Positions 12,532 to 13,185 of a DNA stretch of 64,000 nt are shown one piece after another. The notes under the pieces were generated by a model, which saw only the letters and a list, made by a program, of their open reading frames with translations, searched no databases and was not told the origin of the DNA. The stretch lies in IMG/VR virus record IMGVR_UViG_3300019458_000021, positions 173,380 through 237,379 of that record; one strand, 5' to 3'. The number at the start of each line of letters is the position of its first letter. The first letter of the stretch is position 1. The position numbers and the translations under genes were made by a program. Origin of the DNA: a virus.

Positions 12532-13185
12532 ATGGCTATCGCTGGCACAGACATCACGAAAGACAATATCACTGGATCAGGTGGCGTTGACTTGAACTCG
12601 TTCAAGCAACAAATCACCGACGTTGTCAACGCACTCACAAAAACAACAAGCGTGTCCGCAAACGGGACTGCACTAGGTCAAAAGCCATTTGGTAGTGGTG
12701 CACCAATTAGTGGATCGTTGTCAAGCACCAACTATGGTGGAACACCTCCTCTGTCTGCGCCACTTGTCGCTCCTGGCACGGTGACGAATTCACCACAAGC
12801 AAGTGACATTGCAGGTGCGAACATTGCAGCAGCCACTCTGATCACATTGTTCCAAAACACAGCTGTATTACTGTCCCGTGTTCGTCGCTATTCAATGGTA
12901 AAAACATACCTTAGTCCAGCGCCTGTTATCCAACTATCACTTACAGAACCAGGCCGCTATGGTTATCTGACAACAACGTACCAAGCAAATCCAGCAACAA
13001 CAACACCAGCAATCACGACATCTTTGGCAGCTCTTACTGGCGATATTAGTGCAGCAACGTTAAACACAGTAATTGACAACGTTGACACCGCAATTACGAA
13101 CCACAGAAACACAACCGTCGCGTTCACGGAAACGTGGTGTCACTCAAGCTGTCACAGCAGTCATAGTTCAAGGAACCGTCGCTAA
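12532..13185 (+). CDS. Virion-like protein with C-terminal Cys/His-Ser-Ser repeat (candidate radical SAM substrate)
   Basis: This 217-residue protein has an N-terminal part that is Ala/Thr/Gly/Ser-rich like a fibre protein ([23 protein letters not shown]) with a helical middle. Residues 200-217 change abruptly to [19 protein letters not shown] (last 19 residues): a 3-4-residue periodic [8 protein letters not shown], H-S-S ending in basic residues. His-Xaa-Ser (Hxs) systems have similar tandem His/Ser tails modified by two radical SAM proteins. Here radical SAM genes flank the protein. It may be a structural protein whose tail is cross-linked or otherwise modified; metal binding by the tail is an alternative. 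Confidence 0.7.
   Translation: [217 protein letters not shown]

Follow-up and report, generated by a model that had tools for sequence, protein, structure and literature searches.

Genes of the cassette

The window analysed here, a stretch of 64 kb, is the final part of a 237,379-bp virus record in IMG/VR. It contains a radical SAM gene, referred to as rSAM-1, the gene for a protein with a Cys- and His-containing C-terminal tail, referred to as the carrier, and a series of further enzyme genes, as follows.

10064–11302, + strand: tail-fibre/virion-structural-like gene directly 5' of the cassette (phrog_18671, E=2e-8; phrog_14394, virion structural, E=5e-5)
11354–12529, + strand: rSAM-1, radical SAM/SPASM enzyme with invariant Cys columns, the constant partner of the tail (phrog_1802, E=2e-57)
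12532–13185, + strand: tail-bearing carrier, putative target or precursor, 217 aa (phrog_35144, function unknown)
13138–13182, + strand: C-terminal tail, residues 203–217, a variant of CHxSCHxSCHxSRGRR without the third Cys
13185–13949, + strand: p20767, conserved cassette partner (phrog_20767, E=1e-35)
13949–15052, + strand: helical protein of the MLHL family (phrog_36207)
15062–16132, + strand: second MLHL family protein (from the cassette comparison over 100 loci)
16135–17172, + strand: radical-SAM-like protein with CKWNCTGC and a Cys-rich C-terminus (phrog_31457; no Pfam match, assigned by motif)
17169–18311, + strand: radical SAM/SPASM enzyme (PF04055, E=8e-9, above cut-off; phrog_1802, E=1e-53)
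18882–19979, + strand: radical SAM/SPASM enzyme (phrog_1802, E=2e-41; family in 86 of 100 loci)
21207–21809, + strand: putative 2OG-Fe(II) oxygenase (PF13759, 21.8 bits, just below the cut-off of 27)
21797–22441, + strand: 2OG-Fe(II) oxygenase (PF13640, 32 bits, above cut-off; family in 41 of 100 loci)
22438–23382, + strand: radical SAM protein (PF04055, E=9e-6, slightly below cut-off)
23348–23776, + strand: small conserved cassette protein of the MKEWxxRxxxF... family, which recurs across cassette loci

The original prediction placed rSAM-1 2 bp upstream of the tail gene, and this is indeed the arrangement: rSAM-1 stops at 12529, the carrier ORF begins at 12532 after a 2-bp gap, and the carrier in turn overlaps the p20767 gene by 1 bp. 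Homologues begin near the ATG at 11462, which may be the true start of rSAM-1. The stretch from the carrier to position 23776 encodes the two MLHL proteins together with two 2OG-Fe(II) oxygenases and four proteins that are radical SAM or radical-SAM-like. Two genes have, by eye, the look of homing-endonuclease-type insertions, one inside the island (18312–18836) and one at its end (23819–24397); no NCBIfam support was found for either gene. When the 100 loci with enough sequence were compared, with radical SAM subfamilies assigned approximately by best score, the recurring order was rSAM-1, tail protein, p20767, MLHL protein, radical SAM protein, in some cases a 2OG oxygenase, and two more radical SAM proteins. 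The tail protein is present in 99 of these loci, p20767 in 98 and the third radical SAM family in 86. In phages FLC6 and SURPRISE13 a cupin gene lies directly 5' of rSAM-1. The predicted structure of p20767 (pLDDT 88) has a short N-terminal alpha/beta part followed by a helical part, and a PDB fold search with it returned no match. Pfam gave nothing for the carrier, p20767 or the MLHL proteins.

The radical SAM core of rSAM-1, CxxxCxxC, has invariant C51, C55 and C58, and its SPASM set is complete (C283-x10-G-x4-C299 ... CX2CX5CX3C ... C361, with C283, C299, C338, C341, C347, C351 and C361 all invariant). Against the SPASM profile TIGR04085, with its cut-off of 27, the orthologue in phage Atu_ph07 scores 30 bits and the window protein 23.7 bits. 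Judged by both cysteine patterns, rSAM-1 is assigned to the broad radical SAM/SPASM class. By profile and PDB comparison, most of its nearest described relatives modify peptides or proteins, among them anSME, DynA, DarE and PapB; none of these relatives scores above cut-off.

Translation of positions 13132–13185 confirmed that the carrier ends in the predicted Cys/His-Ser-Ser tail, and the two Cys residues within this tail are the only ones in the protein. The body had been described as fibre-like up to about residue 200, a description that finds no support: the AlphaFold model is mixed alpha/beta with moderate confidence (pLDDT 69), a PDB fold search with it found no match, and the link to fibres is one of gene position only. 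A BFVD search with the carrier yielded a few significant matches, all to uncharacterised phage proteins including Atu_ph07 gp170, and there was no NCBIfam match for the window carrier. Neither the window carrier nor its exact tail gave any match in tblastn, for which low-complexity masking and divergence are the most likely causes; the consensus tail succeeded as a query where the exact window tail returned nothing. All 181 collected homologues entered the carrier HMM after two iterations.

Conservation of the tail and its pairing with rSAM-1

The canonical motif, CHxSCHxSCHxSRGRR followed by a stop codon, stands at the C-terminus of proteins that are little conserved elsewhere. A degenerate DNA pattern for it (CHxSCHxSCHxxRxRR-stop) matched at least 120 stretches in IMG/VR viral contigs, nearly all at the extreme C-terminus of ORFs of about 120–310 aa, while by a rough estimate chance would give well below one match in the collection, which excludes chance as the origin of the tail. 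Across the 1653 pairs of a 58-sequence alignment, identity averages 79.5% in the tail versus 34% in the body, and among pairs less than 20% identical in the body, tail identity is still 76%. The tail is encoded by 147 distinct DNA versions among the homologues, with TGT/TGC, CAT/CAC and TCN/AGY exchanged freely, so that selection acts on the protein. For this reason a conserved RNA or DNA element at the tail was rejected, as was an overlapping reading in the +2 frame (ORF 13073–13270), since the Cys/His/Ser frame is the one selected and its synonymous sites are free. A c-type haem motif (CX3CH is formally contained in CHSSCH) was also rejected: no maturation genes were seen, several variants do not have the motif, and the carriers show no obvious signal peptide by eye.

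All aligned sequences keep the C-H pairs unchanged. Part of this invariance arises because tails collected by the pattern are canonical by construction, from which the 82 loci collected by rSAM-1 alone are free. The first Cys-His pair (residues 203–204 in the window) is kept in every homologue that was read. Cysteine is otherwise depleted in the carriers, 94 of 131 non-redundant bodies having none at all, and the Cys content of the bodies is 0.29% versus 1.6%. The window tail departs from the canonical form in that the third Cys is absent; each of its units reads H-S-S. The same shortened tail occurs at locus L166, whose rSAM-1 is 71% identical to that of the window, which marks it as a lineage variant and not an error; locus L130 (64%) has the canonical tail. 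In a large viral clade (L168–L171, L173–L190, L193–L199) most tails end FYCHSNCHGSCHGS[IL] without RxRR, so the basic end is dispensable. Expanded tails with multiple blocks of CHSSCH units are found at L119 (7832–8515) and L175 (7105–7662). Some loci (L009, L026, L039, L050 and others) have two adjacent tail genes, each encoding 125–140 aa; rSAM-1 then lies at a distance of several kb or on the opposite strand, and the tandem proteins are perhaps two subunits of one structure. The C-terminal tryptic peptides of the carriers end ...SANVTASIGVDFCHSSCHASCHNSR in Atu_ph07 and ...NYTASIILDYCHTSCHASCHSSR in Phosso.

The tail and rSAM-1 were found together from whichever side the search began. A tblastn search of 50,697 phage records with rSAM-1 gave full-length orthologues in seven, representing about four lineages: Atu_ph07 (twice), Phosso, FLC6, FLC8, SURPRISE13 and pPa_SNUABM_DT01. 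An outlying match in Thermus phage phiLo is 23% identical. The phrog_20767 gene is in the identical seven records, and the consensus tail, searched alone, returned exactly these seven and no others. The possibility that the tail is widespread in phages lacking radical SAM genes, which would have spoken against the original prediction, therefore did not hold. In all five regions read, the gene directly 3' of rSAM-1 ends in FCHSSCHASCHNSRSRR, YCHTSCHASCHSSRSRR, VCHSSCHTSCHGSRGRR (twice) or a related tail, each followed by the stop codon. In IMG/VR loci with a single tail gene and available upstream sequence, a strong rSAM-1 match, mostly with E<1e-70, usually lies no more than 50 bp 5' on the same strand. 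Of 40 tail-bearing records without an adjacent rSAM-1, 31 have one elsewhere, and the other nine are contigs of 5.6–38.7 kb; viral contigs are mostly incomplete. In the opposite direction, 73 of the 82 viral loci collected by rSAM-1 have a tail gene downstream (47 with a CH3-RxRR tail, 24 with CH3-[IL] and two with the shortened form, the window's twin and L166). Eight others are cut-off contigs: seven end within 500 bp past rSAM-1, and the eighth, L131, has a twin, L130, that bears the tail. The last, L135, has tails elsewhere on the same record. Co-occurrence is thus close to absolute in both directions, which supports the earlier proposal that the tail is a substrate.

Fibre genes and chromosomal copies

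The gene 5' of rSAM-1, at times separated from it by a small gene, is tail-fibre-like or virion-structural-like in most phage loci scanned. Three fibre-region genes of the window (10064–11302, 24423–26708 and 26718–31052) share a motif, LYGRG/LLGKG ... WGE/YGE ... LEN ... PP..P..G.LW, which is probably a virion-anchor domain, and the cassette sits between the first two of them. A further gene in this region, at 31062–33287, encodes 741 aa that are mostly RCC1-like repeats (PF25390, E=2e-119), which is unusual in a phage. According to the Atu_ph07 study, the virion proteins detected by mass spectrometry cluster in CDS 170–215, with gp215 the capsid protein (PMC6102473). The carrier homologue is gp170 (we checked the numbering), the first gene of this cluster as delimited there, and the cluster boundary as given is suggestive of gp170 being in the virion.

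The cassette is not exclusive to phages. Among 84,980 bacterial and archaeal genomes the canonical tail was found in only 12 stretches, all in MAGs, and rSAM-1 was present in each of the nine tail-bearing MAGs searched. In two of the nine a terminase shares the contig with rSAM-1, which identifies these two cases as phage. In two Bdellovibrionota MAGs the cassette lies, by eye, among genes for acyl-CoA metabolism, cytochrome oxidase or transporters, and rSAM-1 occurs in 16 of 291 Bdellovibrionota genomes, once on a 4.15-Mb contig; in this phylum it is chromosomal. The carriers at the Bdellovibrionota loci read lie near p20767 and have tails WCHSSHSSHSSHSSRGRR, YCHSNHCSHSNHGSRGRR, YCHGNFPPPCHGSRGRR, YCHTNVPTPPPCHASRGRR, ICHSNCYTPPPKSRSRR or canonical ones, some with a single Cys and HSS or Pro-rich units; at one locus, L312, no carrier was seen in the 12 kb read. 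A looser DNA pattern applied to the whole phylum was noisy (it matches simple repeats, and the control also matches) and was used only beside rSAM-1.

These chromosomal loci also have fibre genes nearby. All nine Bdellovibrionota genomes checked encode, within about 3 kb of the cassette, a short protein of prepilin type that ends in an S74 chaperone domain, and these genomes have only 2–19 S74 genes each. The cassette thus travels with fibre genes in both phages and Bdellovibrionota. At ten loci (L257–L260, L313–L316, L319 and L320) the prepilin-S74 fusion is accompanied, beside the cassette, by a protein of about 190 aa ending ...GRHWVKIK or similar, for which the copies scanned gave no Pfam match. 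In B. bacteriovorus, S74 fibres are the adhesins by which prey is recognised (PMC10769870). The original prediction had made the carrier a virion protein. The gp170 cluster and the tail-fibre neighbours lend this indirect support for phages; as a general role it does not stand, since the same cassette is found in chromosomal Bdellovibrionota, which have no virion.

A putative modified tip and its relation to known systems

We consider it likely that the tail is modified by rSAM-1 on a carrier that belongs to the host-contact fibre apparatus, in a RiPP-like protein-modification cassette. The near-absolute pairing is most simply accounted for if the tail is the substrate of rSAM-1, and adjacency favours rSAM-1, among the several radical SAM proteins, as the enzyme that would act on it. 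In the proposed sequence of events, rSAM-1 would recognise the tail-bearing carrier and oxidatively modify or crosslink its C-terminal Cys-His-x-Ser repeats, and the remaining radical SAM proteins and the 2OG-Fe(II) oxygenases probably act on the tail or on a neighbouring fibre. The carrier, made in the cytoplasm, would then be placed in the tail-fibre or baseplate region in phages and probably in the prepilin-S74 surface fibre in predatory Bdellovibrionota, where the modified tail could serve as a tip, ligand or attachment element contacting the host or prey cell. The best candidate for the modified site is the first Cys-His pair, because no variant read has lost it. Given the clade without RxRR and the single-Cys tails of Bdellovibrionota, not every repeat can be required for the reaction. 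A thioether, a His crosslink and formylglycine (at the third unit, C/S-H-x-S-R) each fit part of the data.

The last of these chemistries would have rSAM-1 act like anSME, converting a tail Cys or Ser to formylglycine and leaving a reactive aldehyde at the tip. The best NCBIfam match of the window rSAM-1 is the anSME profile (TIGR03942), anSME is also the best PDB match of the family, and the third unit, C-H-x-S-R, resembles the sulfatase motif C/S-x-P/A-x-R, with Ser at the corresponding position in the window lineage (S-H-S-S-R). However, the profile score of 42 bits is far below the cut-off of 349, so that equivalog-level assignment was rejected; the Atu_ph07 orthologue scores better with DynA and PapB, and 24 loci end CHGS[IL] with no Arg. 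We regard this chemistry as improbable. Metal-binding ends rich in His or Cys occur at the tips of phage spikes, as in PAAR and HxH tips, and the tail could similarly be an unmodified element at a fibre or spike tip that binds zinc or iron or joins subunits by disulfides, with the radical SAM enzymes directed at a different target. The invariant C-H pairs and the nearly Cys-free body would suit such a role, but it leaves unexplained why rSAM-1 is the usual adjacent gene and why tails without rSAM-1 are found only on fragments, and in some variants only one Cys is left, accompanied by HSS or Pro-rich units; we regard it as unlikely.

A different fate for a modified tail would be release, by cleavage, as a small RiPP-like effector with a role in antibacterial activity, superinfection exclusion or prey killing. 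The position of the putative core at the C-terminus is as in RiPPs, the system is also present in predatory bacteria that have no virion, and multi-repeat tails such as those of L119 and L175 would be in keeping with it. Against this, no protease or exporter family was found in the cassette proteins scanned with Pfam and NCBIfam, the cassette is consistently linked to fibre genes, and the homologue in Atu_ph07 is probably retained in the particle, so we give release little credence. Genuine membership of the His-Xaa-Ser (Hxs) systems, the identity originally suggested, has very little left in its favour. The tail units do contain His-x-Ser or His-x-Asn, and one bacterial tail, WCHSSHSSHSSHSSRGRR, touches the HxsA profile at 16 bits, yet this best homologue compares with a cut-off of 121.65 bits and aligns across the repeat only; HxsB reaches at most 32.4 of 370 bits (Atu_ph07 rSAM-1) and HxsC at most 32.7 of 267.9 bits (window 17169–18311), so the identity fails at the profile level. 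For HxsD, the genes starting at 13185, 13949, 15062, 20369 and 23348 gave no NCBIfam match down to E=1.

An attached tail modified by rSAM-1 thus remains our preferred reading, and the tail/rSAM-1 system appears to be undescribed so far. Phage radical SAM genes are numerous and are usually dismissed as metabolic or accessory, and if this reading is right a large group of them would gain a specific, testable substrate, a tail of 15 residues. Viruses would then finish a host-contact protein by radical chemistry, predatory bacteria would keep the same machinery next to their own fibre genes, and there would be both a new class of peptide-modifying enzyme and a new determinant of phage-host contact. 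A broader version, in which a widespread and so far unrecognised pathway of radical SAM and 2OG enzymes gives the fibres that recognise host or prey a modified tip of new chemistry, in jumbo and marine phages as well as predatory Bdellovibrionota, is put forward more tentatively, at slightly less than even odds. If true, it would provide a first case of a virion protein modified by a radical SAM enzyme that the virus itself encodes.

Parts of this system have probably been seen before. Published pelagimyophage genomes have "radical SAM" cassettes that vary within a host-recognition cluster (PMC7029224), and the FLC6 and S13 papers list accessory radical SAM, cupin and 2OG enzymes (PMC8066314, PMC11898562). 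These islands are probably the same as the one described here, and the FLC6 and SURPRISE13 records do carry the system; in the portions of the three papers drawn on here the enzymes are listed, with no role, substrate or tail proposed. Campylobacter phages CP220 and CPt10 have 11–12 radical SAM genes, partly in exchangeable modules (PMC2853527); neither has a match to rSAM-1, and their radical SAM genes may have another target. The chromosomal cassettes resemble the MAT/S74 adhesin loci of Bdellovibrio in that they too adjoin S74-chaperoned fibre genes, whereas MAT proteins follow a signal peptide with no radical SAM link reported (PMC10769870) and the neighbours here are short prepilin-S74 proteins.

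With Hxs systems the cassette has in common C-terminal His-x-Ser repeats beside several radical SAM genes, in tandem as H-S-S in the window and as H-x-S or H-x-N in most homologues, and one Bdellovibrionota homologue even has Hxs-like period-3 HSS repeats. This is a resemblance insufficient for membership: the typical units are of period 4, CHxS, and contain Cys, the partners are p20767, MLHL proteins and 2OG oxygenases, and the context is one of phage and fibre genes. On the best reading the cassette would work like an Hxs system, yet is none by any profile tested. With the SPASM maturases (anSME, DynA, DarE, PapB) it shares the radical SAM core and the SPASM Cys pattern, but no equivalog cut-off is reached by the cassette enzymes, and what they would modify is the tail of a protein of 125–310 aa rather than a small precursor or a sulfatase. 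FibroRumin (TIGR04135) and the Cys-Xaa-Xaa-Xaa repeat target (TIGR04117) likewise have repeated Cys near a radical SAM gene, and their profiles match the L175 carrier at 15.9 and 13.7 bits, below the cut-offs of 45 and 50; in comparison with both, the His after each Cys and the RxRR end are particular to the system described here.
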